A DNA stretch of 64,000 nt from an uncultured Acidobacteriota bacterium (lineage in GTDB: Bacteria; Acidobacteriota; Terriglobia; Bryobacterales; Bryobacteraceae), in NCBI GenBank assembly GCA_900696665.1, contig CAADGY010000217.1, positions 1 through 64,000 of the forward strand. Direction: 5' to 3'. Under the pieces are notes generated by a model. It worked only from the letters and a program-made list of their open reading frames with translations, ran no database searches and had not been told where the DNA came from. Positions 44,507-61,051 of this stretch are shown here, piece by piece. The first letter of the stretch is position 1, and every line of letters starts with the position of its first letter. A program made the position numbers and the translations under genes.

Positions 44507-44515
44507 GTTGGGGAA

Positions 44516-45628
44516 TCAGTACCGGACGGATGCAACGGATGATATTCGGGCGTTCTCTTTCCGTCTGGTGCCAGTGAATACTCGAGGCCGGTTGAACAGC
44601 CATAACGCCAGCAACTCCGGGCGGAAACTTCCATTCCGGTCCGTGATGTTCCCGGATGAAATATTCAACCGGCCGATGAGTGCGGTTTGCCAGTTTGCCG
44701 TGTCCGCGGAGGTGAGGTGCGGGTCGCTGGTGAAGAGCAAACGGTAGCCGGCCGCACGTGCAAGCTGTACGGTCTCTTCGTTGTAAAGACCATGCGGGAA
44801 AGACAAAGCCAGCGGCGCCCGCCGCTCCTCGAGTCCCAGCAAAGCTACCAGCCGCCGGCGGGAATCTTTCAACTCCTTTTGAGGGTTCGCCGCCAGAGGA
44901 ATAGGCGTGTGTGTCAGGCCATGGGACCCGATGCTGATGCGGGCTTTCGCAAGAGCGCCCAGTTGAGCGGTTGATAACATCACGGATCCTTCGAGCGCGG
45001 AGGACGGTTGGAAAATCGTATTCAATAAGGCCGTCCGTGATACGTCATCGAGGGTATCCAGCCGGTTGGCCAAAGCCCAGAAAGCCTTCGCCGAAGTCCA
45101 ATCCCGCGGCTTGGTATCTTCCGCATCCGGCAGTGCGCGCCATAGACCGCCGAGTTGATCCGCATCGAGGGAGCCTCTTCGCCACTGCCGGTACAGGCGT
45201 TCCCGCCAGAAACCTTCCTGGTCTACTGCGCCGGCCACGACAAACACCACGGCGGGTAGCCCGTACTCTTGTAAAATGCCGGCGGCGTATTGTTCGTTGT
45301 CCGCCCATCCGTCGTCGAACGTGATCAACAGCGGCCGGGCGGGCAAGTTCTCTCCGCCATCGCCGGCGCGTAGTAAATCATCGATCCCGATGACGTTGTA
45401 GTGCCTGCGGAAAAACTCCAGGCAATTCCGGAAAAGGTGGCTGGTAACGGTCCAGTTCGGATCGGTATCCGGCCAGCGGGGATCATCCTCCGGCAGAACC
45501 TGGTGAAACATGACAACCGTCAGCGAGCGCTGATTCCTCACCCGATGGTACAGGCTGAGCAGCCCGGAACAGTACAGGAACCGTTTAGCAACACTTGAAA
45601 CAAACAGGGGTTTGTGTTCAGGAGGCAT
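44516..45628 (-). CDS. Polysaccharide deacetylase (NodB-type)
   Basis: 370 residues. VVMFHQVLP, LITFDDGWADN (metal-site Asp-Asp), GSHGLTHTPI (His ligands) and LSFPHGLYN are the four NodB motifs. The fourth motif has PHG where PYG is usual. It resembles the longer deacetylases of exosortase-type loci, which lack a signal peptide. The gene overlaps the flippase end by 11 bases. It is the second deacetylase of the locus, with 35379-36143. Confidence 0.84.
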   Translation of the reverse strand: MPPEHKPLFVSSVAKRFLYCSGLLSLYHRVRNQRSLTVVMFHQVLPEDDPRWPDTDPNWTVTSHLFRNCLEFFRRHYNVIGIDDLLRAGDGGENLPARPLLITFDDGWADNEQYAAGILQEYGLPAVVFVVAGAVDQEGFWRERLYRQWRRGSLDADQLGGLWRALPDAEDTKPRDWTSAKAFWALANRLDTLDDVSRTALLNTIFQPSSALEGSVMLSTAQLGALAKARISIGSHGLTHTPIPLAANPQKELKDSRRRLVALLGLEERRAPLALSFPHGLYNEETVQLARAAGYRLLFTSDPHLTSADTANWQTALIGRLNISSGNITDRNGSFRPELLALWLFNRPRVFTGTRRKENARISSVASVRY

Positions 45629-47099
45629 GAGATACAGCCTTTACGAGGAGCCGCCGCCGCTGTGACAGATAACTCCTCACCATCGCTTTTTCCTCTGCCG
45701 GAAAATATCCGATCAGCCACGCCACCAGGGCGAACCCGAGCACCAGCAGAACATCAATGCCGATCCGCCCGAGCATCGCCACTTCACCGATGAGCATTGA
45801 TGCGAACAACACCAGGGCGGAGAGTACACCCAGTAAAGCCACGGACCGGAAGGCGAACGCGATATGGTGCTCGTATTGTGCGGCCACCCAACAACCTGCC
45901 ATATAGGCGAGCCAGGTCAGCAGTGTTGCCAGCGCGGCGCCCTTCATCTGATACTTCTGGATCAGCCAGTAATCCAGTCCGATATTGAGCAGAGCGCAAA
46001 CGATGGCGATTCTGCTGAACAGCCCTGACCGTTTGTTGATAAACAGCAGATCCCGGAAGAAATCGCCGATCTCGCGGAATACGTAGGCAAACGCGATAAA
46101 CGGAATCAGCATCGCCGCCTGGGCATAAGCCGGGGCGGCGACCAGTGGGACCGCTTCATCGGCCACTACGCTGATGCCAACCGCGGCCAGAAACAGCGCC
46201 AGAACGAAATACCGGGCGATTCTGCCGAACTGGTGCCGCCATCCTTCGGTCGACGTGTGCGCATACAAACTCACTGCCCAGACCCGGGCGAACGGTTCCC
46301 CAACAATATAGGTGACGAGAAAGCCTGCTTTATAGGCGAGCGCATACACGCCGACTTCACCCAGGTTGACGAAGTGATTCAGGAAGAAGCGATCAGCAAA
46401 ATGGATCACAAAAAAGCAGGCACTGGTAATCACCAGCGGTCCGCCAAAGTGGGCCATTCTCCGCGCCTGCTCCCAGTTGAAACCGAAGCCGGTTTCCCGT
46501 AGCAGAAGCACGATGAGAATCGCGGCGCCCAGTCCCGTGCAAATCAGCTTGCTGAGGATAAATCCCCAGACGCCCATTCCCCGGTACGCAATAAACCAGA
46601 TGTTCAAAGCGAGTGTGAGGGTAAGCTGGGCGGCCGAGAAGAGAACGAAAAATAATGACCGCTGTTTGATTCGTGAATAGACCAGTGCCAGTTCGGTAAT
46701 ATTGCCAAGCACCATCGCCAGAAAGGCGAGCCGCACCAACCACGCGCTGCTGCTGGAGCCGAACATAAGGATCGCCAGCGGAGTAGCGCCTATAAATGCG
46801 GCGCCCGCCAGTAGCAGGCTCAAGGAAGTGATTCCCACGAGAGCGGTAGAAACCAACATGCCGCGGCTACGCTCGTCGGGATAGTCGTAATATATCCGCA
46901 CCATCGCGTCATTCATCGCGAGAACGCCGAGAATGATCACCGAGACGGACACGAACAACTCGATCATCTCGATCAGACCGTAATCGGCCGGAGTCAGAAA
47001 TTTGGTGTAGACCGGAATCATCAGGAAGCCGACGCCGCGGCGTACGATGTTTCCGATGAAGTAAAGGGCCGATTGCTGAAACAACCAGGATATTTTCAT
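45618..47099 (-). CDS. Wzx-type polysaccharide flippase (second of two)
   Basis: 493 residues, about 14 membrane helices. ALYFIGNIVRRGVGFLMIPVYTKFLTPADYG and IEMIELFVSV are classic O-antigen/EPS flippase starts. It moves a finished lipid-linked repeat unit across the inner membrane. It begins 3 bases after the GT2 gene and is close to the ligase/polymerase, which suggests it handles the main repeat unit. The other flippase sits 36 kb away. Confidence 0.9.
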   Translation of the reverse strand: MKISWLFQQSALYFIGNIVRRGVGFLMIPVYTKFLTPADYGLIEMIELFVSVSVIILGVLAMNDAMVRIYYDYPDERSRGMLVSTALVGITSLSLLLAGAAFIGATPLAILMFGSSSSAWLVRLAFLAMVLGNITELALVYSRIKQRSLFFVLFSAAQLTLTLALNIWFIAYRGMGVWGFILSKLICTGLGAAILIVLLLRETGFGFNWEQARRMAHFGGPLVITSACFFVIHFADRFFLNHFVNLGEVGVYALAYKAGFLVTYIVGEPFARVWAVSLYAHTSTEGWRHQFGRIARYFVLALFLAAVGISVVADEAVPLVAAPAYAQAAMLIPFIAFAYVFREIGDFFRDLLFINKRSGLFSRIAIVCALLNIGLDYWLIQKYQMKGAALATLLTWLAYMAGCWVAAQYEHHIAFAFRSVALLGVLSALVLFASMLIGEVAMLGRIGIDVLLVLGFALVAWLIGYFPAEEKAMVRSYLSQRRRLLVKAVSHAS

Positions 47100-47102
47100 G
47101 GA

Positions 47103-48191
47103 TTAGAGTGACTGGGCGGCAACGGTGCGGACGCGGGAGTGTGCGGGAACCTGTCTCGATACGACGCGGCGGCCGAACCACCACTCATACCGGCCGGCCG
47201 AGAACAGAGATCCAAGCATTCTTCTGATCCGGGCTCCCAACAACACGGCACGGCATTTCACGGCGGAAAGCAGCCTCACCGGCACAACCGAGGCGGCCGA
47301 GCGAAGCAGGCGCGCCCTCCAGCGGTAAGTCCACAGGGAAAAAGATTCTTCTTTCAGATGCCGCAGCAGAGTATCATGTTTTCCGAGATCGAGCAGCCAG
47401 TATGCATGCCGGAGAAGTAGCCAGTCCAGCAGAAGGGTGGCATCGCGGCGTTTCGCAGGGGGTAGTGCTCCCGTGTCAAGGAACCGGCGCAGCGTGCGCG
47501 CGGCGGGCGGATAAGGCGGATTCGATTTCCAGCGTGAAAACGACCGGCCTGTGGCATCGGTGTGATAAATCGCCAAAACACGCGAATCGTATGCGATGGG
47601 ATGCCGCAGAGCGATGCGCACCCACATATCGCGATCCGCGCCGATCGGCTCGCCCTCAAGGAATACTCCCACTTCCTCGAAAACGGAGCGTGGAATGGCC
47701 ACACTCGAAGAGCTTACGAAATTTCCCTGCTTTGCATAATAAAAATACTTCTCGATGAGACTGGCATGGCCGGTGCCGCCAGATTTGAATGTGGTCTCAA
47801 GATCGTATGCCTCACCGTCTACGCGGCGCAGGCCCGTGGCCAGAATGCCGGCCTGAGGAAACTGTCGGGAAAGGCCAGCCACTGCTTCCAGGAAACCGGG
47901 CTCCCACTCGTCGTCCCCATCCAGAAAGGCAATCAGGGCACCTCTTGATTCCGAGATACCACGATTCCGGGCGCCTCCCTCTCCGCGGTTTTTCTGCTCC
48001 ACAACACGGAATCGCGGATCGGGAAATGCCGCCGCCAAGGCGCCTCCCCGGTCTGATGAGCCGTCGTCGACCACGATGACTTCGTAATCTGAAAATGTCT
48101 GTCTTCGAATGGACTCGAGGCAGCGAAGAATGTAGCGTTCTTTGTTGTAGAGCGGCACTACAACGGAAATGGCCGGGAATGTTGTACTCAC
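47103..48191 (-). CDS. GT2 family glycosyltransferase
   Basis: 362 residues from the GTG at 48191; a TTG two codons earlier (48197) is also in frame. SVVVPLYNKERYI, VIVVDDGSSDRGGA and FLDGDDEWEPG are the GT-A donor motifs. GGTGHASLIEKYF and GADRDMWVRIAL are on the acceptor side. No strong ribosome site. A hairpin stands just upstream at 48203-48231. It is the first of the run that continues through flippase and ligase. Confidence 0.85.
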   Translation of the reverse strand: MSTTFPAISVVVPLYNKERYILRCLESIRRQTFSDYEVIVVDDGSSDRGGALAAAFPDPRFRVVEQKNRGEGGARNRGISESRGALIAFLDGDDEWEPGFLEAVAGLSRQFPQAGILATGLRRVDGEAYDLETTFKSGGTGHASLIEKYFYYAKQGNFVSSSSVAIPRSVFEEVGVFLEGEPIGADRDMWVRIALRHPIAYDSRVLAIYHTDATGRSFSRWKSNPPYPPAARTLRRFLDTGALPPAKRRDATLLLDWLLLRHAYWLLDLGKHDTLLRHLKEESFSLWTYRWRARLLRSAASVVPVRLLSAVKCRAVLLGARIRRMLGSLFSAGRYEWWFGRRVVSRQVPAHSRVRTVAAQSL

Positions 48192-48202
48192 GAGCAAATG
48201 GT

Positions 48203-48231
48203 GCGACGGCCTTCTTTGCGAAGGCCATCGC
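48203..48231 (-). other. 12-bp-stem hairpin between the dockerin and GT2 genes
   Basis: GCGATGGCCTTC pairs with GAAGGCCGTCGC (one G-T wobble) around a 5-base loop. It sits in the 68-base gap after the dockerin gene. There is no T-tract, so it could be a Rho-type end, an RNA processing point or an attenuator rather than a simple terminator. Confidence 0.45.
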
Positions 48232-48259
48232 CATGGATTGAATTGGTCTAACTGAAAAC

Positions 48260-50815
48260 TTAAGAACCGGTACGGCAGGCGCCGCCCAGGGCGGCGTTAA
48301 TGACACGCTGCACGTCGATGACGTTGCAGCGTCCGTTGGAGTCGAGGTCGCTCGTGCAGGAACTGGTCCCGAGCGCCTGGTCGATTCCCAACTGCACGTC
48401 CAGCGCGTTAACGAAATTGTCCTTGTTGATGTCGCAACTGCTCACTACAGGATCCGGCGGAGGAGGCGTAACGGGGGGTGGCGTGGAAGAACCCTCCGTG
48501 CCTCTGGGCAGGAAAGCCCATTTCGGATTTTCCTGGCCGCTCACGTCATAGAGGTTGGCCTTCAGCCACTCCCAGGCGGCCTTACCCGTGTACGATCCGT
48601 TCGAATAGGGATATGCGTAACTGGTGGCCGCGAATCCGATATAGGCATAGTCGGACGCGCCGGTAGCCTCCCAGGTCCTGGCGTCCCGGATGGTTGGCAG
48701 AAACGCGTTCTTCACGGAGGACCACGACGTCAGATATTTCGCATCGGGCGTCATCACGGGCGTCTGGTAAGCCTGGATCAGATATGGATTGTAGCTGGGA
48801 TCCAGGATGCGGCTGGTGTAATACTTGCTCCGGTCCTGCAGAATTCTGGAGTAGTTGAAACCGAGTTCGTTCAAGTGTCCCCAGACGGCATAAAGCATGT
48901 GCTCCTGCCAGGTGAGAACACAGTAGTTTGCCTGTGGATTGTTCACGACGTAATCGTGGCAGGCAGGTACCCCGAACGAGATAAATCCCAGATTCGGATA
49001 ATTGATCGAACCAGTGAAATCCGGGCCCTGGGAAGCGGTCTTGTTTCCCCAGCACCATTTGCTCTTTTCCGTGGCGGCATTGTAGGGGCTGGTTGTGCAG
49101 GGCGAATACAACGGGCTGCCGGTGATATTGTAGAATCCTTCCTGTATCACGATATTATTGTTCATCTTCTGCACAAACTGCGCCTTCTCCGGCGTTCCGT
49201 CCGGCGCCACGAAAGCAGCTTGGCCGATGGTCCGCAGGGCCCACGCCTGGCCGCGTGTCTCTATGGCCCCTTGGTTTATGTATCCCCAGGTTTCATGCCG
49301 CGACCAGCCCAGTGTGATGCCGGGATTGGCCACCCCGAGGTTGTACGCTGCCCAGGCGTAGAGTTCCTCAAGAAAATACCAGTCACCCGTGATCAGGTAA
49401 GGCAAATACGTGAACGCCGGCTGATGCGCCAGATCGGGCGACCAACCGTGCGCACTGCTGCGGGGCCCTGCCGCCACGATCCTGTCGGTCGGGTCGTTAT
49501 CCTTCTCACCCAGACGGACTCTCGGACGAGCATCGATGGAGACCATACGCCCAAACGCCTCATCGGTATCGGCAAGCCCGTCGTTGTTGGCATCCCGGAA
49601 CGACCGGCCCGTAAGCGATTCGCGCAGGTGAATCGGAACATGCCCGCTGACGGCTGCGTTCCCCAACACCGGGCCATCGAGCATCGCGTTGTCGGACACC
49701 TTCGACATCGTGTAGAGATACCGCACCTGCCATTCCGGAATAATGCCGATGTGGCCATCCGTCGTCTGACCCGTGCCGGGCATGTATTTCTGATACTGAC
49801 CATTGCCATTGATGTCACCACGGTCGGTTGCGTTGAATGCGGAGATGTCATTTGCAATCCGGGACGTTGAAACCGGCATCGACAGATCGTAGTTCGGCAA
49901 AGCCTTGGTGGAGATCAGATACGGCAGGTTGTGGTCGATTTTAATATCGCCTGGCGCCGTGTTCGACCAGAACGTCTTGCGCCATCGCGTGGCGGCGTAA
50001 TGGGTTACTATCTTGCTATACCGGCTGGCGAGATTCGCGCCGCTTTTCAGATTGACCGTGTAGCGTTGATCCTGGAGCGCGGTGGTCCACATGTTCTCCA
50101 GAATGTAATCCACCTTGACTGTCTTGTTTGCGGGATAGAACGTCACTACAAAAATAGGATGCAGGGATCGGTTCTGGTTGTCGGCCGCCCACGTTGCGCT
50201 GGCATAATCGCCCGTGCAGCCCCCTGTACAACTCCAACCGAAATCGGCGGAGCGGTTTGGGGACTTGTCTTCGATGATGACCTGCGTGACCACGGGACCC
50301 GCCATCCAATACCGCACCTGGGCGGTATTAAAATCGGTGCTGACGTTCAGGTTGTTCAGCATCGTCCGGGCGTTGGCGCTCTTTGCCAGCCCGGAGGCGG
50401 CCGCCTCGATCGACGCACCCCATCCGTTGCCCGCGCCAGATGTGCTCTCGTTGAACGCGAGCATGCCGGCTTTATCCAGATACCCGGTGTTATTCCCGGT
50501 GGCCTGGCTGACGAAATCGACGGTTATGGTGGCTCGTGCGCCGATCGTCGCGTTAAAGCTTACCAGGGCGTGCTGCAAGCTGCCGTCGGGCCACCTGGTT
50601 TTGACATCGCATTGCGTAGTGACGGGCGTACCGTTCACCCGGGCTTGCGCAAACCTTGCAATGTCGCCTTGTGCGAACACTCTGGAGATCGTGATCGGAC
50701 GGTTCGTTTGCGCGGCTCCGCTCAGATCGGTGATGGTGATGGCATTGCCGGACGCGGAAAATAATCGTACGGCCGTAAGAAACAAAACAGAAGTTATGAA
50801 AACAAAATGTTTCAT
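48260..50815 (-). CDS. Large secreted protein with C-terminal dockerin pair
   Basis: 851 residues from the ATG preceded by GGCGG. A signal peptide (FVFITSVLFLTAVRLFS) leads an N-terminal beta domain with RWPDGSLQHALVSF, a motif also seen in RGLX/YetA-like lyases. The ~500-residue middle has aromatic, helical-toroid-like character, with Ca-loop-like stretches (DRGDINGNG, DANNDGLADTDEA). A Pro-rich linker then leads to a dockerin pair: DINKDNFVNALD and DLDSNGRCNVID, both with the Asp/Asn Ca ligands, ending in QRVINAALGG. A polysaccharide lyase or hydrolase role fits the locus, but is inference. Confidence 0.78.
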   Translation of the reverse strand: MKHFVFITSVLFLTAVRLFSASGNAITITDLSGAAQTNRPITISRVFAQGDIARFAQARVNGTPVTTQCDVKTRWPDGSLQHALVSFNATIGARATITVDFVSQATGNNTGYLDKAGMLAFNESTSGAGNGWGASIEAAASGLAKSANARTMLNNLNVSTDFNTAQVRYWMAGPVVTQVIIEDKSPNRSADFGWSCTGGCTGDYASATWAADNQNRSLHPIFVVTFYPANKTVKVDYILENMWTTALQDQRYTVNLKSGANLASRYSKIVTHYAATRWRKTFWSNTAPGDIKIDHNLPYLISTKALPNYDLSMPVSTSRIANDISAFNATDRGDINGNGQYQKYMPGTGQTTDGHIGIIPEWQVRYLYTMSKVSDNAMLDGPVLGNAAVSGHVPIHLRESLTGRSFRDANNDGLADTDEAFGRMVSIDARPRVRLGEKDNDPTDRIVAAGPRSSAHGWSPDLAHQPAFTYLPYLITGDWYFLEELYAWAAYNLGVANPGITLGWSRHETWGYINQGAIETRGQAWALRTIGQAAFVAPDGTPEKAQFVQKMNNNIVIQEGFYNITGSPLYSPCTTSPYNAATEKSKWCWGNKTASQGPDFTGSINYPNLGFISFGVPACHDYVVNNPQANYCVLTWQEHMLYAVWGHLNELGFNYSRILQDRSKYYTSRILDPSYNPYLIQAYQTPVMTPDAKYLTSWSSVKNAFLPTIRDARTWEATGASDYAYIGFAATSYAYPYSNGSYTGKAAWEWLKANLYDVSGQENPKWAFLPRGTEGSSTPPPVTPPPPDPVVSSCDINKDNFVNALDVQLGIDQALGTSSCTSDLDSNGRCNVIDVQRVINAALGGACRTGS

Positions 50816-50948
50816 GGGTTCCGCCAAGGTGAAACTCGGGTCCAAACCTTAAAGTGATTCAGTGGTGCAACTGATAAGTGCAAAACAACAATGTACTGTC
50901 TCAGTTGCCGGCCAATGATTGCTCCCAAACGGATTTCCCATCCTAACA

Positions 50949-50967
50949 TGCATACTAGGACTATGCA
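50949..50967. promoter_or_regulatory. 19-bp inverted repeat upstream of the dockerin gene
   Basis: TGCATA and TATGCA form a perfect dyad with a 7-base spacer, in the AT-rich part of the 272-base gap 50816-51087. It lies about 135 bases upstream of the dockerin gene start and could be an operator. A second palindrome is next to it (50974-50985). No good promoter consensus was found, only weak matches. Confidence 0.4.
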
Positions 50968-50973
50968 ATAAAA

Positions 50974-50985
50974 AGTACTAGTACT
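50974..50985. promoter_or_regulatory. 12-bp perfect palindrome AGTACTAGTACT
   Basis: The sequence equals its own reverse complement and is made of two AGTACT units. On the minus strand it is followed by TTTTTA. It may be part of an operator with the 19-bp dyad 7 bases away, or a weak terminator of the UbiA-like gene. The rest of the 50816-51087 gap holds no gene that I can see. Confidence 0.35.
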
Positions 50986-51087
50986 AAATAAGTCTTTCGG
51001 TTGTTCAAATGGCGTCCGGCTAAATGTGGTTTTCCCCGCGTGTGGACAGAGTGATTCTGTGCTGCGTCATCGGAGTTTCTGGAGATC

Positions 51088-52005
51088 TCAGAGATAGATG
51101 ATCGCCGCGCAGGCCAGCACCCAGCCGGCGACGCACATCAATAATTGCTTATCCAGCATCAGCGCCGAGGTCGGGTTTCCCGTGCGATCTCCGGAATGCA
51201 TCATGTGCAGATAGCGCAGGACGCCGAACACGACGAAGGGCAGCGTGTAGATCAGCGCGTCGGTTCCGAACTTCGCCTGGGTTTCGGGTGAGACCGCATA
51301 CAATGCATAGGCCACCACGGTGGATCCCGATACCACCGTACCCGCCTGATCGAGCCACGGCAGGCTGTAGTGGGTCAGTACCCGGCGATGCTGCCCGGAG
51401 CCGTTTGAGAGGGTCACGATCTCCTGGCGGCGCTTGGCGATGCCCAGAAACAACGCGATGAGGAAGGTGCACATCAACAGCCAGTGCGAGCTCTGCACGT
51501 GGATCGCGGTGGAGCCGGCGATCACGCGCAGGACAAACCCCACCGCGATGCACATCAGATCCACGATCTCTACATGTTTGAGCGCCAGGCTGTACAGGCC
51601 GTTCAAAATCGCATAACCGAATAAAAGAAACCCGGTCGCCGGGTTCAAGGCGAAACCTGCAAGGACGCCCGCGATCAGCAGCAAGGAACCGCAACTTATC
51701 GCCACCGCCGGCGTCAGCCGTCCAGACGGGATCGGCCGCCTCTTTTTCTGCGGGTGATTCAGATCGCTCCGCCAGTCGAGACTGTCGTTCCACAGGTAAA
51801 CGCCGCTCGCTACCATCGAGAACGCCGCAAACACGGCCAGCGCCCGCAGGCCCAGTTCGAAGTTCTGGAGATTGGCCGAAAAGATCAGCGGCGCCAGCAC
51901 AAATCCGTTCTTGATCCATTGCACCGGCCGCATGCCTTCGAGCAGGCCCATCAGGCTGCTCGATACACCGGCCGTGGTGGTGGTCTGTAGAACGGGTGAA
52001 CTCAT
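51088..52005 (-). CDS. UbiA-family polyprenyl-phosphate phosphoribosyltransferase (DPPR-synthase-like)
   Basis: 305 residues, about 8-9 membrane helices. MRPVQWIKNGFVLAPLIFS and the NDSLDWRSD motif (73-81) with KKRRPIPSG are those of decaprenyl-phosphate phosphoribosyltransferases. A second Asp-rich loop (DLMCIAVGFVLRVIAGS) follows. The enzyme puts 5-phosphoribose from PRPP onto polyprenyl phosphate, the first step to lipid-linked ribo- or arabinofuranose. A HAD phosphatase gene precedes it, matching the next step. No ribosome site of note. Confidence 0.86.
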   Translation of the reverse strand: MSSPVLQTTTTAGVSSSLMGLLEGMRPVQWIKNGFVLAPLIFSANLQNFELGLRALAVFAAFSMVASGVYLWNDSLDWRSDLNHPQKKRRPIPSGRLTPAVAISCGSLLLIAGVLAGFALNPATGFLLFGYAILNGLYSLALKHVEIVDLMCIAVGFVLRVIAGSTAIHVQSSHWLLMCTFLIALFLGIAKRRQEIVTLSNGSGQHRRVLTHYSLPWLDQAGTVVSGSTVVAYALYAVSPETQAKFGTDALIYTLPFVVFGVLRYLHMMHSGDRTGNPTSALMLDKQLLMCVAGWVLACAAIIYL

Positions 52006-52063
52006 TGCCGCTTTCTGTGAACAGGCAGGTAAATAACCATCGCCGGGGATAACACCTTATAGG

Positions 52064-52090
52064 CTCTTCCGGAACCTACGGGGAAGAGCG
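52064..52090 (-). other. 8-bp perfect hairpin between HAD and UbiA-like genes
   Basis: GCTCTTCC and GGAAGAGC pair perfectly around an 11-base loop in the 88-base gap 52006-52093. It begins 3 bases after the HAD stop and has no T-tract. It may act as an mRNA end or attenuator. TATAAGG directly follows and could be a weak -10 element, but no good -35 was seen. Confidence 0.4.
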
Positions 52091-52093
52091 CAA

Positions 52094-52789
52094 TCAATTT
52101 GTTGTACAGAATGACGATTTTTGGTATGGGGTGGCCGCCACCAGGGCAGCCAGATGGGACATCCCCGCTCCATCCGGTTCAATCAGAATCGAGGAGATTC
52201 CCGCCCGGACGGCGGCAGCATCGTCCACGCCGCGGCGGTCGCCGATATACACCACTTCTTTGCAGGTAACGCCGAGTTTACGTGCCGCGACTTCGAGGCC
52301 ACGCGGGTGCGGCTTGAAACACTGAACCTCGCGGTCCTGGGCGCAAACGATTACGTCGAAGTATGCCCTCAGGTTCATCGCTTCCAGCTTCCGTTCGCAC
52401 GGATAATCAGAAACCACGCCCAGTCCAAGCCCCCGCTCCCGGGCCTGCCGCAAAAGATCCGCTATACCGGGTCTTACACAACGCGCCAGCAGGTCCAGCG
52501 GAGACCGTTCCATCCAGTGCTGAACCAGCGCCCGCATCCGCGCCGCTTCGATTCCCGACCGCCGGGAAGCCAGTTCGATCTGAGCCTCCTCCAGGTTCTT
52601 GAAGGGAGCCGCGGCCGCACGCATCTCTTCCTGTGCGCACCGGTACGCCGCCAGCGCCCGCACGAGCGAGCGCGCTTTGAGGGGCGCGCCCGCGCACGCC
52701 TTCCCCAGCCGCAGCATCATGCGGCGGCGGAGCCACGCCTGGGAATACAGCGTGCCGTCCACGTCGAAAAGCAAAGCGCGCGGGTTCAA
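52094..52789 (-). CDS. HAD-superfamily phosphatase
   Basis: 231 residues from a TTG that overlaps the amidotransferase stop (TTGA); no other start fits. LLFDVDGTLYS is HAD motif I, GVVSDYP motif II, CFKPHP motif III and VVYIGDRRGVDD motif IV. A helical cap (residues ~20-105) is present. Because it sits next to the DPPR-synthase-like gene, a phosphatase acting on polyprenyl-phospho-5-phosphoribose is attractive. In mycobacteria that step uses a PAP2-type enzyme, so this is a hypothesis. Confidence 0.82.
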   Translation of the reverse strand: MNPRALLFDVDGTLYSQAWLRRRMMLRLGKACAGAPLKARSLVRALAAYRCAQEEMRAAAAPFKNLEEAQIELASRRSGIEAARMRALVQHWMERSPLDLLARCVRPGIADLLRQARERGLGLGVVSDYPCERKLEAMNLRAYFDVIVCAQDREVQCFKPHPRGLEVAARKLGVTCKEVVYIGDRRGVDDAAAVRAGISSILIEPDGAGMSHLAALVAATPYQKSSFCTTN

Positions 52790-54696
52790 TTCGTCCCAGC
52801 CATTTCAAGGGCGGCTGGCCGCGAAGGGTCCTGATAACGCGCGTGCCACAGGGCCAGCATGAGAAGGTTCCACAGTTTCCGGTCGTGGTTGTGCAGACCG
52901 GATTGATGCTCCGTCCAAATCCGCCCGAGATAGGCCGTTTGAAGCAGTCCATTCACTCCATCGCTTAAGACCGCCGACTCGAATACCGGTTTCAGACTGG
53001 TGCGGAACCACGCGGCCAGGGGTACGGAGAAACCCATCTTCTTGCGGTGGAGGAGCAGTTTGGGAACGTACGGCTCCATGGCTTTTTTGAAGATGTGTTT
53101 CCGGATGCGGCCGTTGATCTTCAGGTTTGCCGGCAGGCGGCAGGCCAGTTCCACCAGCCGGTGATCGAGCCAGGGCGAACGGCTCTCGAGCGAATACGCC
53201 ATCGTCGCCCGGTCTGCTTTCACCAGGATGTCGCCCGGCAGGTAGGTGTGAAGATCAACCCACTGCATCTGCTCGAGCGGCGGTAGATGCCGGACGGCCT
53301 CGAACCGTTTCCGGTAAGCTTCCCTCGGCGAATAATCTCCCGGTTTGCCGTTCGCGACGAGCGCTTCGAGATCCCGTTCGCGAAACGCGGTCATCGAATG
53401 GAAATACGAGTCGCCGATCTCATGAGACAGGTTGGTGAGCAGGCTCTTTGCGCGAAAGACCTGCGGCAGGTAATCGAACTTCGGATAATATCTCGCCCCG
53501 GTGCGAATCACCGATCGCCGGAACCATTCCGGGAACCGGCCGCGGAGCCGCTCTTCGAGCACGCCGTAATAATAACGGCGGTAGCCCCCGAAGATCTCGT
53601 CGGCGCCGTCGCCTGAAATCGCCACGGTGACAAACTGGCGGGTCATGCGGGACAGATACAGCATGGGGATGGCGGAGGAGTCGCCGAACGGTTCGTCGAA
53701 ATGCTCTACCAGTTTCTCCAGGATCTCGAAGATCGAGGGCGTCACTGTCTCCTCGTGGTGATCCGTGTGGTTATGCGCCGCCGCGATCCGGGCGTAGCGC
53801 AGCTCGTCGAACCGCTTGTCGGTGAAGCCGATCGAGAACGTCTTCACACGGTCCGGCGCCGAGCGGGCCATGATGCCGACGGCGGCGCTCGAATCCACTC
53901 CCCCGCTCAAAAACGCGCCCAGAGGAACATCGCTGACCAGACGCGCCTCGACCGCATCCCGCGCCAGCGCGCGAATCTCTTCGGCGGCCTCGCCCTCGCC
54001 GGTCTTCCCACGGCCGGCAAACTCCGGGCGCCAGTATCTTCTGCTCTGCGCGCCGCCGGCGGTGACCGTTAACGAGTGGGCGGGCTCGAGCTTATGGACG
54101 CCATCGAAAATGGTAGCCGGATCGGGGATGTAGGAGAAGCACAGGAAATCCGCAATCGCGGAATGGTTCAGCCGTCCCCGGAACCCCGGCGCGGCCATCA
54201 ACGCTTTCAGCTCCGAGGCGAAGGCGAACCGCAATCCGGGAATGGAAAAAGAATAATAGAGAGGTTTCTTTCCGCAGCGGTCGCGCGCCAGGAACAATTG
54301 CCGGCGGCGCGCGTCCCAGATGGCAAACGCAAACATCCCGTTGAGATATTCCGGCAACCTTTCGCCGGTCTCCTCGTAGAGATGCACCAGAACCTCAGTG
54401 TCGCTCCGCGTGCGGAACTGGTGGCCACGGCGCGCCAAGTCCCGGCGCAATTCGCGGAAATTGTAAATCTCGCCGTTGAAGACCGTTAGCACGCTGTTGT
54501 CTTCGTTGGCGAGGGGTTGATCGCCGCCGGCCACGTCGATGATGCTCAGGCGGCGATGCCCGAGCGCGAGCGCGCCATCGACGTAATAGCCGTCCGCATC
54601 GGGCCCGCGATGCGCAATACGGCTGCACATCTCCCGGAGGAGAGAGCCTTCGGCCGGCGCATCACCGCCGCTCCAAAACCCCGCGATTCCACACAT
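52786..54696 (-). CDS. asnB: Asparagine-synthase-like amidotransferase (exosortase-locus type)
   Basis: 636 residues. Cys2 of MCGIAGF is the glutamine-hydrolysing nucleophile; AHRGPDADG and VFNGEIYNF complete the Ntn domain. The synthetase half carries the PP-loop SGGVDSS (264-270). Amidotransferases of this family are regular members of exosortase-A EPS loci, where they probably amidate a sugar acid or act on the polymer precursor rather than make free asparagine. It follows the small regulator by 22 bases and overlaps the HAD gene. Confidence 0.87.
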   Translation of the reverse strand: MCGIAGFWSGGDAPAEGSLLREMCSRIAHRGPDADGYYVDGALALGHRRLSIIDVAGGDQPLANEDNSVLTVFNGEIYNFRELRRDLARRGHQFRTRSDTEVLVHLYEETGERLPEYLNGMFAFAIWDARRRQLFLARDRCGKKPLYYSFSIPGLRFAFASELKALMAAPGFRGRLNHSAIADFLCFSYIPDPATIFDGVHKLEPAHSLTVTAGGAQSRRYWRPEFAGRGKTGEGEAAEEIRALARDAVEARLVSDVPLGAFLSGGVDSSAAVGIMARSAPDRVKTFSIGFTDKRFDELRYARIAAAHNHTDHHEETVTPSIFEILEKLVEHFDEPFGDSSAIPMLYLSRMTRQFVTVAISGDGADEIFGGYRRYYYGVLEERLRGRFPEWFRRSVIRTGARYYPKFDYLPQVFRAKSLLTNLSHEIGDSYFHSMTAFRERDLEALVANGKPGDYSPREAYRKRFEAVRHLPPLEQMQWVDLHTYLPGDILVKADRATMAYSLESRSPWLDHRLVELACRLPANLKINGRIRKHIFKKAMEPYVPKLLLHRKKMGFSVPLAAWFRTSLKPVFESAVLSDGVNGLLQTAYLGRIWTEHQSGLHNHDRKLWNLLMLALWHARYQDPSRPAALEMAGTN

Positions 54697-54718
54697 AGAG
54701 GAAGTTGTTTAAAAGCTG

Positions 54719-54928
54719 CTACAGGGGCTTTTGCCGTTCGACCGGCTCGAACAGCCAGGATTCTTCGCGTTGGAGCAATGTGGCGATCTTGGCCCGGAGT
54801 TCCGGGTTGGGCTCGCGGTATCCGTTCACGATCTTGCTGAGCACGGTCTCATCCAGGTCCAACATTTTCGCCAGCAGGTTCTGGCGAATACCGGTGCGCC
54901 ACAATTGCAGCTTTAGGTTGGGATACAT
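54719..54928 (-). CDS. Small Cro/CI-type helix-turn-helix regulator
   Basis: 69 residues, just long enough for one HTH domain: LKLQLWRTGIRQNLLAK, then DETVLSKIVNGYREPNPELRAKIATLL, the typical recognition-helix pattern of XRE proteins. It has only a short C-terminal tail, so no sensor domain. It lies 25 bases after the nusG-like gene and 22 before asnB. It could repress the locus through dyads such as the one at 55549-55561; that is inference. Confidence 0.75.
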   Translation of the reverse strand: MYPNLKLQLWRTGIRQNLLAKMLDLDETVLSKIVNGYREPNPELRAKIATLLQREESWLFEPVERQKPL

Positions 54929-54953
54929 CGGGATTCTCGCTTTGAGGCTGATA

Positions 54954-55529
54954 TCAGTTTTTGTACGGAGGACGGAGAACCTCTACATCACCGCTGTCGA
55001 TTTCGGTGGCGACCGACTGCGACAGCATCTGAACAGACAGAACCAGGCGGCTGCCGCTCTTCACGCGCACCAGCAGCCCTTCGACTCCTTCGAGCGGTCC
55101 GTGCTTCACCCTCACCCACGCTCCTTCCCGCAGGAAAGGATGCGAGAAGAAAGGGACCTTCGACAGCAGAAGACGGCGGACCGATTCGATCTCGATTTCC
55201 GGAACCGGTTCGATTTCCGGGCCGTGGCCGAGAATGCGAACCGCCCCCGTGCAGCGCACCACCTGCAACCGGACCGGCACGCTGTCCGGTATCCGGACAA
55301 ATACGTAACCAGGGAAGATGGGGACGTCTACCTCTTTCCGGCGGTCCTTCCAGCGATGCACTTCGCGCACCGCCGGCAGATAGGCTTCAATTCCCTTGGC
55401 CGCCAGATCGGCCGCTACGGTCTTTTCAAAATTCGAACGCGTATAGACGGCGTACCAGCGCGGTATTTCTAAAGCGCCAGGATGCGAGACTGTGAATCCG
55501 GCCGCCGGATGAATAATGAAATCAGACAT
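54954..55529 (-). CDS. NusG/RfaH/UpxY-type transcription antiterminator
   Basis: 191 residues from an ATG with GGGGCGGAG just upstream. The NGN domain is RWYAVYTRSNFEKTVAADL through IFPGYVFVRI; the KOW part is REGAWVRVKHGPLEGVEG. The housekeeping NusG has extra N-terminal features that this lacks; its length and place match UpxY-like paralogs that let RNA polymerase read through long capsule/EPS operons. The polysaccharide locus here is about 50 kb long downstream. An ops-like element and a 13-bp dyad lie in its leader. Confidence 0.87.
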   Translation of the reverse strand: MSDFIIHPAAGFTVSHPGALEIPRWYAVYTRSNFEKTVAADLAAKGIEAYLPAVREVHRWKDRRKEVDVPIFPGYVFVRIPDSVPVRLQVVRCTGAVRILGHGPEIEPVPEIEIESVRRLLLSKVPFFSHPFLREGAWVRVKHGPLEGVEGLLVRVKSGSRLVLSVQMLSQSVATEIDSGDVEVLRPPYKN

Positions 55530-55548
55530 AGCTCCGCCCCTTCGCTTA

Positions 55549-55561
55549 CAGGCGACGCCTG
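55549..55561. promoter_or_regulatory. 13-bp dyad in the nusG-like leader
   Basis: CAGGCG and CGCCTG form a perfect inverted repeat with a 1-base centre, 20-32 bases upstream of the nusG-like start. It could be a protein operator or a small RNA hairpin near the ribosome site. Confidence 0.35.
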
Positions 55562-55590
55562 CAAACATTAATGAAACCCTTCCTCCCCCA

Positions 55591-55610
55591 GCTACCGCCT
55601 TTGCTACCGA
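55591..55610 (-). promoter_or_regulatory. ops/JUMPstart-like element before the nusG-like gene
   Basis: On the minus strand two GGTAGC copies occur 12 bases apart; the downstream one is GGCGGTAGC, matching the first nine bases of the RfaH ops consensus. The upstream copy overlaps the stop codon of the kinase gene. It lies about 60 bases before the nusG-like start, as ops sites lie in leaders of RfaH-controlled operons. GGCGGTAG also occurs by chance in coding parts of this GC-rich locus, so support is modest. Confidence 0.35.
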
Positions 55611-56536
55611 CTGCGAAACTCTTTCGAGGCGCGGTAATAATACGAATCGTACTGGTCTTTTCCCGGCAGAAACCAGTTGCTCTCGCAATTCAGAATTACA
55701 CCCAGCAATTTTTCTTTGGGCAGCGTTTCGAGCGCTTTAAAACAAAGCGTCCGGTTCGTATGATCCGGCCGTACTACCAGCACAACGCCGTCGCATGCCG
55801 CCATGATCAGGTCGTAATCGGCAACGGCCGCAATCGGCGGGGAATCCACGATGACGTATTCAAAGGCGCTTCTTACCCGCCCGGTCAGCGACTGCCACTG
55901 CGGAGAATCCAGCAACTCCGCCGGGTTCGCCCTCTGGTCTCCAGCAGGCAGAACATACAGCGCCGGGAACTGCTCGGTATGCACCAGGGCGTCTTCAAGC
56001 GCGCAGGTTCCTTCCAGAACTTCCGCCAGGCCGGGCGTGTGCGAAAAGCCGATCTGACGGTGTATGGTGGCCCGGCGGAAATCCCCGTCCATCAAAAGAA
56101 CGTTCGAAGTTGTCTTGAGTGAGAGCGCGCCCGCCAGGTTGATGGCCGTGACGCTCTTTCCGTCACCCGAGCCGGGGCTGGAAACCACGATCATCCGGGG
56201 CTTCCGCGGATGTTGCAGGATTTTCGTGCGAATTATCCTGTACCGCTCGCTGGCCTGCCAATGCGTGTCGTCGAACGGCAGCACGGGAGCCGTTTGCGGC
56301 ACCTGTAGCGACAGAGTGCGGATTTTGTCCAGCCGCAGCCCCGCACCCGGAACCGGCACGGCGGCCGGTGGCGCCTGGGGATGCGCGGACGCCGGAGCGG
56401 CATCCACCACAACCGGTGTGGCGGGGAGTGGCTGTTCCGCCGCCGCTACGGTGTCATCGGGTCCGATCAGATCCGGCAGAAGAGAACTCGCCGGTTCTCC
56501 CTCAGCCCTCGTCAGTGCTTCGAATATTTTGCTCAT
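55604..56536 (-). CDS. BY-type tyrosine autokinase of EPS locus (CpsD/exosortase-A type)
   Basis: 310 residues. Walker A SPGSGDGKS is at 120-128, Walker A' LLMDGDFRR at 147-155, and Walker B VIVDSPP at 228-234. A tyrosine cluster near the C-terminus (Y296, Y299-Y301) is the likely autophosphorylation site. The N-terminal ~95 residues are a Pro/Ala-rich linker after MSKIFEALTRAEG, a start shared with exosortase-locus kinases. It is cytoplasmic and works with the Wzz-like protein encoded two genes upstream to control chain length and export. Confidence 0.9.
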   Translation of the reverse strand: MSKIFEALTRAEGEPASSLLPDLIGPDDTVAAAEQPLPATPVVVDAAPASAHPQAPPAAVPVPGAGLRLDKIRTLSLQVPQTAPVLPFDDTHWQASERYRIIRTKILQHPRKPRMIVVSSPGSGDGKSVTAINLAGALSLKTTSNVLLMDGDFRRATIHRQIGFSHTPGLAEVLEGTCALEDALVHTEQFPALYVLPAGDQRANPAELLDSPQWQSLTGRVRSAFEYVIVDSPPIAAVADYDLIMAACDGVVLVVRPDHTNRTLCFKALETLPKEKLLGVILNCESNWFLPGKDQYDSYYYRASKEFRSR

Positions 56537-56551
56537 GCGCGCCGGTTATCC

Positions 56552-57568
56552 TCAGGTCAGTCCGAGCTTCTCCGCCCACCGGTTCCACAACGTCTTCGGC
56601 CGCGGCTCGGAGCCGAAGAACACCGGAACCCGGATCTCGGGAACCTTTGCCATAGGCAGCGGCGATTCCTGTGGAGCGGCGGCGGGAAGAGGCTCGCCGG
56701 CTACAGGTTTGTCTTCCATGCCCGGGACTTCTTTCTTGTCTGTGGTCTGGGCCGCGGGTTGTGCCAGATCAAGGTCCGCCGTGGCCTGTAAAATGTGGGC
56801 GGCGGAAACCACCTGGGCTTTCTCTGCGAAAGCGAGCAGCAGAGCATTGTCGCAGATGGAATTAATCAGCCGCGGAACTCCTTTCGACCAGGCGCCGATC
56901 TGTCCGACCGCTGCCGGAGCGAAGGGCATATTTTCGCGGCCGCCAGCCTGCGTCCAGCGGTAGCGTATGTATGACTCCACTTCTTCGGTGCTCAACGCTT
57001 TCAGGGCCACCCGTACCGAAACCCGCTGCTTGATCTGGCGCAGTTCCTCGCGCTTCAGCACCTCGTCCAGTTCGCTCTGCCCGGCCAGCACGATTTGCAA
57101 CAGCTTCTGGTCGCCGTGGTCGAGGTTGCCTAACAGCCGGATCTCCTCGAGAACCTCCGGACTCAGCTTGTGCGCCTCGTCGATAATCAACGCCGAAAGC
57201 TTGCCTTCCCGGTCGGCCTCCTTCAGGAAATTCTGGAGCCTTACCAGCCGCTGCGCCTTGCTGGCCGGGACGTCCGGGATCCCGAAATCCATCATGAGCA
57301 GTTCCAGAAATTCGTTCGGCGTGAGCGTCGGATGCATCACCACGCTCGACTGTACGCGCCCCGGGGGAAGAAACCGCAGCACCCGCGAAAGCACCGTCGT
57401 TTTGCCGGTTCCCACTTCGCCCGACAGCACCAGCAGACCCTTACGGCTCAAAATTGCGTAAACCAGGGCCGCCATCGCTTCCCGGTGCTGGCTGGTCATG
57501 AACACGCACCCGGGATCCGGGGTCATTGCGAACGGATATTTTTGGAGGCCAAAAAAATCTTTGTACAT
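56552..57568 (-). CDS. ExeA-like AAA ATPase of exosortase-A-type EPS loci
   Basis: 338 residues from the ATG 2 bases after the chain-length gene. YKDFFGLQKYPFAMTPDP is the family N-terminus, Walker A GEVGTGKTT at 50-58, and Walker B LIIDEAH at 127-133. Sensor parts GQSELDEVL and LRQIKQRVSV follow. The last ~70 residues are a Pro-rich tail. This ATPase type regularly sits between the Wzz-like and autokinase genes of exosortase-A loci and is thought to power or gate export. Its exact role is unproven. Confidence 0.89.
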   Translation of the reverse strand: MYKDFFGLQKYPFAMTPDPGCVFMTSQHREAMAALVYAILSRKGLLVLSGEVGTGKTTVLSRVLRFLPPGRVQSSVVMHPTLTPNEFLELLMMDFGIPDVPASKAQRLVRLQNFLKEADREGKLSALIIDEAHKLSPEVLEEIRLLGNLDHGDQKLLQIVLAGQSELDEVLKREELRQIKQRVSVRVALKALSTEEVESYIRYRWTQAGGRENMPFAPAAVGQIGAWSKGVPRLINSICDNALLLAFAEKAQVVSAAHILQATADLDLAQPAAQTTDKKEVPGMEDKPVAGEPLPAAAPQESPLPMAKVPEIRVPVFFGSEPRPKTLWNRWAEKLGLT

Positions 57569-57570
57569 AA

Positions 57571-59235
57571 TCAGAACCGTTGCGCAATAAAATAGCCGGC
57601 GACGGCTGCCACTGAAATCACCGAACTCCAGACAGCCAGGCGCATCTTCATGCGCCCCAGTGCCGCCAGCGCTCCGGCGCCGTCGCCGATCCGGATCTGC
57701 GGCAGTGCCCCCAATACGACCGCGTTCGGGGGCAGTTCCCATTCGCCCAGCAGCACGTTGCGGCGAAATTCATTCCCGAACGCCACCGCCAGACCCAAAA
57801 GCATCGCCACGGCCGATCCCAAAAGCATCAGCACCTTGCGGTTGGGCTTGAACGGCTTCAGTGGGATTCGGGCCGGGTCGATCACTGTGAATCGCTCCGA
57901 TTTCTGGCGCCGCTCGAGGTCAGTCGCCATGTCGGCGGCCAGCTTTTTGCTGAGCAGGGACTGGTAATTCTGCCTGGAGATCTCGTAGTCTCTGGTGATG
58001 GCGGACATCTCCTGCTCCCGGAAGGGCATCATGTCCACCTTGGCCTGCACCCGCAGCATCTCCTGCCGGATCCGGTCCTGATCGGCGATCCTGGCGGCGA
58101 GTTCCTTGTCCGCCATCCCGATCTGCGCTTTCAACGTCTCCATTTTGTCGCGGGCTTGGGCGAGTTCGGCGGATTCGCGCACCGGGGGAGCCGTACGGGC
58201 GAGTTCGGCAGTATCGGGCTGCCTGGATTTAGGCGCCGGAGCGGGCGGCTCGTTGGCCTTGATCTGCCGCAATTTCTCAATCGTGATGCTGAGGCGCTTC
58301 ACGTCCGGGTGCTGGTCGCTGTAGCGGAGCCGCAGGTTTTCCATCTGCCCTTCGAGCTTCCGCAGTTCCGCTTCGGCCGGGCTCAGCGGAGGGGCCGGCG
58401 TCCCGGCTCCAACCGCCGCCAGAGAGGGTACCGGCTTGTTATCGCGGATCGCCTGCTCGACAGCGGCAATCGTTGTTTGCGCCATGCTCAGGCTGTTGTC
58501 CAGGATGGTTTTATCCTGGCGCACGCGGTTGATGGCTTCGGTGTTGGCTTGCAGTTCCGCCTGCAGGCGCCCCAGCGTGCCGACCAGCGCGTTCTGCTGT
58601 TGCGGCAGTTCACCGCCATGCCGGGCCTTGTACTGGCTGACCGTGGCCTCGAGTCCATCAAGCTTCTTTTTGGCTTCCGCGAGTTGGGAATCGATGAACT
58701 CGGCTGTGCCTTCAGCCTGTACTTCGCGATTCTTCAGGTTTTCCTCGACGAAAAATGATGCCAGCCGGTTTGCCACTTCCGCCACGACGCGGGGCTTCGA
58801 ATCGATGTAGCCGATACGGAACGCCGTCAGCCCTCCCGTCCAGCCCGTATCCAGATTCAGCTTGATATTGGCCCGCATCTGGTCCACGGTGGTGTCCGGC
58901 ACGGTCTTGCCACGGGTGAAGCCGAACAGGTTCATCTCCTGAATCAGCTCTTTTAGCCGGTCGTTGCTCAGGATGCGCCGGCTCATCGCCGCCAGGCGGT
59001 CCCGCACATCCACCCGGACGGTCGATGACACATAATCCTGGGGAATCTTCTGATAGTCGACCAGAACCAGAGCTTCCGACCAGAACAGCGAGGGCATTCG
59101 GGAGATATAGAGATAGGCGGCAACACTGCCCAGGATCCACACTGCCACCGCATAGTGCTTGCTCTTCCAAATGGCCCGCAGGATCGACAGCGGCATGAAT
59201 TCCGGGCGGATAAGTGGCTGTATTGATTTCGTCAT
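57571..59235 (-). CDS. Wzz-type chain-length determinant of EPS locus
   Basis: 554 residues. A membrane helix near 30-50 (VAVWILGSVAAYLYIS) is followed by a large periplasmic part with coiled coil (residues ~170-430, many KLDGLEATVSQYK-like heptads). A second helix (KVLMLLGSAVAMLLGLAVAFG) and a third at the very C-terminus (WSSVISVAAVAGYFI) complete it. There is no kinase domain; the kinase is separate. It sets polymer length in the inner membrane. The extra third helix is not usual in Wzz proteins. Confidence 0.87.
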   Translation of the reverse strand: MTKSIQPLIRPEFMPLSILRAIWKSKHYAVAVWILGSVAAYLYISRMPSLFWSEALVLVDYQKIPQDYVSSTVRVDVRDRLAAMSRRILSNDRLKELIQEMNLFGFTRGKTVPDTTVDQMRANIKLNLDTGWTGGLTAFRIGYIDSKPRVVAEVANRLASFFVEENLKNREVQAEGTAEFIDSQLAEAKKKLDGLEATVSQYKARHGGELPQQQNALVGTLGRLQAELQANTEAINRVRQDKTILDNSLSMAQTTIAAVEQAIRDNKPVPSLAAVGAGTPAPPLSPAEAELRKLEGQMENLRLRYSDQHPDVKRLSITIEKLRQIKANEPPAPAPKSRQPDTAELARTAPPVRESAELAQARDKMETLKAQIGMADKELAARIADQDRIRQEMLRVQAKVDMMPFREQEMSAITRDYEISRQNYQSLLSKKLAADMATDLERRQKSERFTVIDPARIPLKPFKPNRKVLMLLGSAVAMLLGLAVAFGNEFRRNVLLGEWELPPNAVVLGALPQIRIGDGAGALAALGRMKMRLAVWSSVISVAAVAGYFIAQRF

Positions 59236-59566
59236 ATCGACGTTCCAGCGGCGTGAGGCCTTTTTACGGCTCTGACAGCCCTGTCAACATCTTGTTGCAA
59301 GCTGGATAGCATGCACGTGCGATGCCGAATTGTGAATGCGCTTGATTCAGTGCCGGTTCCGCAGGTGAGACCCTGGTTGATCCCACGTAGGTTTATAGGA
59401 CTTTGTCCAAAACATGGGGACGCGTCTGGCCTTAACCGGATGAAAAGAAGACTGTCTTGCCCTCATAAATCCTTTAGAATTGCTGTTGATAATGCACGGC
59501 ATCCTCCAAAGGGGGGGCGGTGACACCGGGTTCACATTGAGTTGCCGCAGGGCTACCGGGTCTGAG
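59236..59566. other. 331-base gap between the barrel and Wzz-like genes
   Basis: No gene is supported here. It contains a CGGTG/CACCG dyad at 59518-59528 and a GCACGTGC palindrome near 59313-59320. A GG-N10-GC pair at 59312-59327 (minus strand) is the nearest thing to a sigma-54 site but matches poorly at -24 and -12. The region is AT-richer near 59460-59500 and probably carries the promoter of the Wzz-ATPase-kinase genes. Confidence 0.35.
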
Positions 59567-60961: not shown

Positions 60962-60967
60962 CTGCCC

Positions 60968-60993
60968 GGGACGCTCTGTGACCCAGCCGTCCC
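60968..60993 (-). other. Hairpin between export and barrel genes
   Basis: GGGACG and CGTCCC pair across a 14-base loop in the 90-base gap 60962-61051. It lies 7 bases upstream of the barrel start, so it could hide the ribosome site. No T-tract. Confidence 0.3.
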
Positions 60994-61051
60994 ATTCATT
61001 AGTAAGTGGTGCGAAAGTTCGGGAAATCGCAGCATGCCTATCCCATGAACC

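Follow-up and report, generated by a model that had tools for sequence, protein, structure and literature searches.

The window analysed here comprises 64,000 nucleotides of DNA from an uncultured Acidobacteriota bacterium of the family Bryobacteraceae and opens a contig of 192 kb. Below 61.8 kb, as far as the window edge, all called genes lie on the minus strand, and the island contains XrtA-type EPS genes, glycosyltransferases, two Wzx-type flippases, SDRs, deacetylases and five GT-C-like proteins (Table 1). The EPS assembly genes resemble XrtA/PEP-CTERM EPS loci in that TIGR03097 is passed by the O-ligase (470.5 bits, cut-off 188.1) and in the order of genes for chain length, ATPase, kinase, export and amidotransferase. 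The UpxY antiterminator also exceeds the cut-off of its model (NF033644, 120.4 bits against 100). The locus differs from its XrtA/PEP-CTERM counterparts in two respects: several members fall under the cut-offs, and a DPPR synthase (DPPRS) gene and a HAD phosphatase gene are inserted. The chain-length, ATPase, kinase and export genes stay below cut-off, with TIGR03007, TIGR03015 and TIGR03027 among the models not reached. The amidotransferase reaches 692.9 bits with TIGR03108, below the cut-off of 816.9, and passes asn_synth_AEB.

Table 1. Features of the island, with positions numbered from the first nucleotide of the window.
Feature	Position	Strand	Basis or remark
PMT_2-type GT-C, alternative candidate	4774..6402	-	PF13231
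Multi-pass membrane protein, alternative GT-C candidate	6457..8034	-	orthologue adjoins DPPRS in G055
Second Wzx-type flippase	8031..9485	-	PF01943, 94.9 bits
PMT_2-type GT-C, alternative candidate	19496..21736	-	PF13231; homologue in G396 island
AftB-like GT-C, proposed lipid-P-pentofuranose : polysaccharide transferase	30542..32296	-	584 aa; AftB profile match
PMT_2-type GT-C, alternative candidate	32348..33967	-	PF13231
Extended SDR epimerase/dehydratase, possible modifier of lipid-linked pentose	38728..39741	-	PF01370, 115.6 bits
XrtA-type EPS assembly genes framing the DPPRS-HAD pair	42135..61807	-	TIGR03097, NF033644
Members: FemAB-like, deacetylase, O-ligase 43196, UpxY antiterminator 54954	within 42135..61807	-	
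Members: kinase 55604, ATPase 56552, chain length 57571, export 61052	within 42135..61807	-	
Wzx-type flippase, candidate repeat-unit exporter	45618..47099	-	PF13440/PF01943
DPPR synthase (polyprenyl-phosphate phosphoribosyltransferase, UbiA superfamily)	51088..52005	-	305 aa; NF008977, PDB 8j8j, motifs
Stand-alone HAD-IA (C1-capped) phosphatase	52094..52789	-	231 aa; TTG start; PF00702/PF13419
XrtA/PEP-CTERM-type asparagine synthase-like amidotransferase	52786..54696	-	upstream neighbour of HAD

The DPPRS gene starts at ATG 52005, with ATG 51951 as the other possible start. Its product scores 266.7 bits with the NCBIfam model for decaprenyl-phosphate phosphoribosyltransferase (NF008977, cut-off 234) and matches the solved M. 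tuberculosis enzyme (PDB 8j8j) at E 7.2e-29. The NDxxDxxxD motif of DPPR synthases, to which the original prediction had pointed, is read as NDSLDWRSD, and the family model adds support to that assignment. HPQKKRRP follows, and the second conserved DPPRS motif, KRxxE, appears as KRRQE. By family the protein is a DPPR synthase, and it would be expected to transfer ribose 5-phosphate from PRPP. It groups with the orthologues of genomes G003 and G386 in the UbiA tree (100% support), and among the four UbiA genes of the genome it alone has a DPPR synthase match. Across the phylum DPPRS was found in 199 of 396 genomes, mostly in single copy, and it is rare in the window's class; the majority of the genes inspected, that of G396 included, have no HAD neighbour. 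No PAP2 gene lies beside DPPRS in the window, the flanking genes being the HAD gene and 48260, neither of which is PAP2 according to Pfam. The latter (48260-50815, minus strand) encodes a large protein whose C-terminus is dockerin-like; it comes after DPPRS both here and in two relatives (L029, L205). The island also encodes a DUF362 protein (25345-26424, minus strand). Its close homologues in four genomes of another class (L209, L210, L212, L213; E 1e-90 to 1e-109) lie directly downstream of DPPRS, and a GT2 gene flanks DPPRS on the opposite side.

Both genes of the pair were found exactly where they had been reported, with the HAD gene 88 bases upstream of the DPPRS gene. The HAD gene starts with TTG, and the amidotransferase gene, with its stop, runs 4 bases into it; coupling upstream is thus at least as tight as to DPPRS, and the HAD protein could serve another step. 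The protein belongs to HAD subclass IA by its C1 cap, its catalytic residues and its Pfam matches (PF00702 and PF13419, both over cut-off), and D9, D11, S127 (motif II), K159, D184 and D189 are invariant in an alignment of 29 homologues. An AF2 model (pLDDT 95.7) shows a capped HAD-IA fold whose closest matches are phosphatases acting on sugar phosphates, of the YniC-like and NANP kinds. An inverted repeat of 8 bases (GCTCTTCC...GGAAGAGC) lies in the gap between the two genes (52006-52093, minus strand). No such spacer exists in G386, where the HAD and DPPRS genes overlap by 4 bases.

The AftB-like GT-C gene is located 20 kb from the DPPRS-HAD pair, with four further GT-C-like proteins encoded in the island. 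Its start is more likely ATG 32296 than GTG 32338, and the DDxYI...RVEGFTS signature described earlier is present as DDTYITLRY...GGERVEGFTS. Pfam and NCBIfam models give no match to this protein, including the AftB equivalog NF041481 even at E 10; the same model finds the homologues in G071 at E 5e-10, far under cut-off. A profile built from the GT-C family matches AftB (PDB 9dlf) at E 2.8e-21, the sole significant match in the PDB (next 0.07), in keeping with the AftB likeness first proposed. Residues D37, T67, E141 and R182 align with AftB D62, T91, E172 and R221, which the AftB (9dlf) paper identifies as nucleophile and donor contacts of a retaining enzyme. The equivalent of AftB R372 is probable, one column off, and D37 and R182 are invariant in all 41 homologues covering these positions. 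By analogy the GT-C is probably retaining too, and since AftB is retaining, a beta-linked product would be the default expectation. Residue 246 (Pro; AftB Thr274, which contacts donor C2) was rejected as a marker of ribose or arabinose use because Pro is also seen where DprE1 is present (G164, G438) and many genomes without DprE1 have Thr. A single-sequence structure model of the GT-C was discarded (pLDDT 42).

Among the relatives, homologues of this GT-C occur only in G071, in three copies, each at most 10 kb from a DprE1-like gene and from a gene in which HAD and UbiA (DPPRS) are fused (NF006088, 541.9 bits); a DprE2-like gene is farther along. The best homologue in the 396 phylum genomes, a full-length match at the 42% identity level, is in G396 and lies 1.1 kb from DPPRS, with an extended SDR between the two; the G396 island has many genes in common with the window. 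DPPRS is present in 56 of 61 GT-C-positive phylum genomes compared with 143 of the 335 others (Fisher 1e-13, a value confounded by phylogeny). That the GT-C uses the lipid-linked donor, as originally proposed, draws on this linkage to DPPRS in G396 and G071 and not on adjacency in the window, where the 20-kb distance and the four other GT-C-like proteins count against it. On these grounds a role as pentofuranose transferase is likely. Alternatively, DPPRS and the HAD might act as proposed and supply one of the other candidates (6457, 4774, 19496 or 32348), with the AftB-like GT-C taking a different polyprenyl-P sugar. Directly beside DPPRS in G055 there is a homologue of 6457 (locus L033; E 1.6e-184), and orthologues of 4774, 6457 and 8031 lie near DPPRS in G029. 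However, homologues of 6457 occur in 8 of 101 relatives, not every one with DPPRS (G056, G063 and G092 have kin of 6457 and no DPPRS match). This protein was accordingly demoted from main transferase to rival. Linkage to DPPRS is more specific for the AftB-like kin, and transfer by one of the other GT-C proteins is unlikely.

The location of the genes suggests the island EPS as acceptor. Pentofuranose side groups added to EPS outside the membrane, as first envisaged, are consistent with the pathway genes; the choice of EPS derives from gene position, and a dedicated donor flippase (SMR/MATE or GtrA) was not recognised in the island, the only GtrA recognised being on another contig (C36). Comparable lipid donors feed cell-wall arabinan in actinobacteria and pilin in Pseudomonas pili, half of the phylum genomes have DPPRS, and most of the DPPRS genes inspected are not within an evident EPS locus. 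The donor might thus serve a cell-envelope glycolipid or a surface protein. We consider this unlikely, given that the pair lies inside the same EPS gene order in the window, G003 and G386.

The nature of the sugar depends on whether the lipid-linked ribose is epimerised. The original prediction noted no DprE1, and a search of the whole genome (6.04 Mb in 443 contigs, 91.8% complete) gave no match to PF04030 and a best NF053785 match of 42 bits, compared with 213-504 bits in DprE1-bearing genomes. At E 1e-40, DprE1 was found in 19 of 62 searched genomes and in none of the window genome, G386 and G396. With about 8% of the genome possibly missing, this absence is strong, not absolute, and ribofuranose is most likely the sugar, as the default donor. 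A FAD amine-oxidase-like protein (33967-35334, minus strand; PRK07208 kin) recurs in such EPS islands (L032, L204) and adjoins DPPRS in G029. Despite that adjacency it is unsupported as a substitute for DprE1, since 11 of the 101 relatives have it and several of these show no DPPRS match.

The ribose or arabinose donor proposed earlier therefore narrows, for want of DprE1, to ribofuranose by default, with xylofuranose, through C3 epimerisation by an SDR, as open as arabinofuranose. Conversion of the lipid-linked ribose to an epimer, through an SDR or some enzyme not recognised as such, has a precedent in Citrobacter youngae O2, where a single SDR, ORF13, converts polyprenyl-P-Ribf to Xylf (PMC11127046). 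The island has four extended SDRs, an extended SDR separates DPPRS from the GT-C orthologue in G396, and the GT-C kin in G071 are near DprE1/E2. Against this, the genome has no DprE1, and no SDR of the window adjoins DPPRS. The SDR at 38728, with the motifs GGTGFIG and YSRAK, is only distantly related to that of G396 (E 1e-12), and the window SDRs are equally fit for nucleotide-sugar synthesis. Xylofuranose or arabinofuranose as the end sugar is hence quite unlikely. A literature search for the sugar composition of acidobacterial EPS found no usable data.

A close homologue of the HAD phosphatase was found in 4 of 101 relatives. In G003 the order is amidotransferase, HAD, a 543-aa membrane protein and DPPRS; G386, found separately, has amidotransferase, HAD and DPPRS. 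The HAD-DPPRS linkage is thereby held in three genera (window, G003, G386), with the amidotransferase adjoining the HAD gene in each. In G006 the HAD gene directly precedes a different UbiA gene in a non-EPS setting, and G033 has a copy without a nearby UbiA. The HAD alignment was also scanned against 84,980 species genomes. The best 80 loci span Acidobacteriota, Armatimonadota, Bacteroidota, Gemmatimonadota, Desulfobacterota, Planctomycetota and others, phylum names being those in the record titles. A UbiA gene of the DPPRS superfamily is near the HAD gene in 72 of these 80 loci (same strand in 67), and in 52 of the 80 no more than 200 bases separate the open frames of the two. By our own estimate, based on four UbiA genes in 6.04 Mb, any UbiA would be expected within 8 kb on either side in about 1% of cases by chance. 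On Rhizobium plasmids the HAD gene lies between the UbiA gene and a GtrA flippase gene.

Eight of the 72 UbiA partners are DPPRS-type. In L120, L125, L131, L139 and L153 the HAD gene shares one locus with DPPRS and DprE1, and in four of them also with DprE2, which places it in otherwise complete arabinose-donor operons. In L131 the DPPRS model is passed (215.9 bits, cut-off 207), while the DprE1-like (390.6) and DprE2-like (186.9) proteins fall below their cut-offs of 500 and 250. From the recurrent HAD-UbiA linkage and the presence in DprE1/DprE2 loci, the HAD protein is likely the 5'-phosphatase for polyprenyl-phospho-5-phosphoribose. The alternative, that the protein acts more generally on sugar phosphates in the island (in nucleotide-sugar supply, say) and that another enzyme dephosphorylates DPPR, would suit the fold closest to small-molecule phosphatases, the overlap with the amidotransferase gene and the G033 copy, but it is improbable in view of the Rhizobium arrangement and of the 72 UbiA-linked loci, whose contexts are unrelated and some of which lack the amidotransferase.

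The remaining 64 of the 72 partners form a separate UbiA clade on a long branch (100% support). This clade, seen in L063 and in 64 of the loci L076-L154, is what the window-type HAD most often pairs with. Members tested are far under every curated DPPRS cut-off. Their motifs are N(D/E)xxDxxxD (NExxDxxxD in L063-like members), often HPxK..RP, and KRxxE. In Bacteroidota loci of this sister clade, genes for a FAD-dependent (GMC-like) oxidoreductase and GtrA-like and GT-C-like proteins recur nearby. In the HAD tree the DPPRS-type partners are interspersed, at three separate points, with those of the other clade, as would be expected if both UbiA clades pass the HAD the same kind of product; both may use PRPP. 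We tentatively suggest, at somewhat less than even odds, that the HAD belongs to an unnamed family of dedicated polyprenyl-phosphoribose 5'-phosphatases present in many phyla, and that the L063-like UbiA proteins are a second, unrecognised PRPP-dependent branch of lipid-linked-pentose synthases.

Taken as a whole, the genes suggest that EPS synthesis in the island includes a branch based on lipid-linked pentofuranose, running from DPPRS through the HAD to the AftB-like GT-C, with ribofuranose as the most likely sugar; from sequence we give this reading a probability of roughly two in three. The UbiA enzyme would move 5-phosphoribose from PRPP to polyprenyl phosphate, and the HAD-IA protein, judging from its conserved linkage and intact active site, would strip the 5'-phosphate to give polyprenyl-P-ribofuranose. 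The lipid-linked ribofuranose would then be flipped across the membrane, where the AftB-like GT-C is predicted, by homology, to pass the sugar to the polysaccharide outside as a beta-linked pentofuranose side group.

The closest parallel is the three-component pentofuranose system of C. youngae described by Kelly et al. 2024 (PMC11127046), comprising ORF15 (PRP-PPPRS), ORF14 (flippase) and ORF12 (GT136). There a HAD phosphoribose phosphatase is fused to a PRPP-dependent PPPRS, and in O1 a GT-C adds ribofuranose without DprE1. The window likewise has a DPPRS-type UbiA, a HAD phosphatase, a GT-C and a presumed polysaccharide acceptor, lacks DprE1 as does O1, and has an SDR epimerase as an option, as in O2. 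In contrast to C. youngae, the HAD is encoded on its own, not as a fused PRP-type domain, and belongs to a different HAD subfamily, the GT-C resembles AftB, no small flippase was recognised in the island, and the setting is EPS, not O antigen. The window HAD gave no phmmer match to UbiA-fused HAD domains from L042, L045 and L048, and the phosphatase thus seems to have been drawn from different HAD subfamilies. The proposal that a HAD replaces PAP2 is strengthened by the linkage in three genera and in 72 of the 80 best loci, and it is not new in principle: the pathway logic has this Citrobacter precedent. New here are the stand-alone HAD-IA phosphatase, the AftB-like, probably retaining GT-C, and a sister UbiA clade, little described so far, that pairs with this HAD.

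Other systems share parts of this arrangement. The actinobacterial block of AftB, DPPR synthase and PAP2 (Rv3805c-Rv3806c-Rv3807c; Rhodococcus ruber pmega_4) also has DPPRS and an AftB homologue, whereas the window has HAD-IA instead of PAP2, no DprE1/DprE2 and distant AftB kinship. A Lactococcus plasmid EPS locus (DPPRS, HAD-IB phosphatase, GtrA) has a stand-alone HAD by DPPRS too, but its HAD-IB has no relation to the window HAD that phmmer can detect, and it includes GtrA. The noeC(N)HOP operon for Nod-factor arabinosylation (IRBG74 plasmid), in which noeN has been put forward as DPPR phosphatase (PMC5080398), shares the DPPRS-type UbiA and lipid-linked pentose; unlike the window it has DprE1/E2-type genes and GtrA, and no HAD-IA. 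By operon place noeN appears to be L221 5867-6289 (plus strand), which is annotated as GtrA family and fits a flippase better; it was rejected as a HAD precedent. By position, candidate phosphatases beside DPPRS on named plasmids include HAD-IB in Lactococcus, a divergent PAP2 in Marivivens, a PHP domain in haloarchaea and PAP2 in Rhodococcus.

The 5'-phosphatase emerges as the least uniform step of lipid-linked pentofuranose synthesis, with PAP2 in actinobacteria, a fused HAD in Citrobacter and others on plasmids. A HAD-IA family that tracks UbiA synthases across phyla would be a marker for finding such pathways. If the HAD family and the second UbiA branch are as suggested, lipid-linked pentofuranose would be far commoner than annotated, in Bacteroidota, Gemmatimonadota, Desulfobacterota and Planctomycetota. 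For uncultured Acidobacteriota, pentofuranose, probably ribofuranose, is predicted in the EPS, and the findings suggest that AftB-type retaining GT-C enzymes are at work beyond actinobacteria, without arabinose donors.
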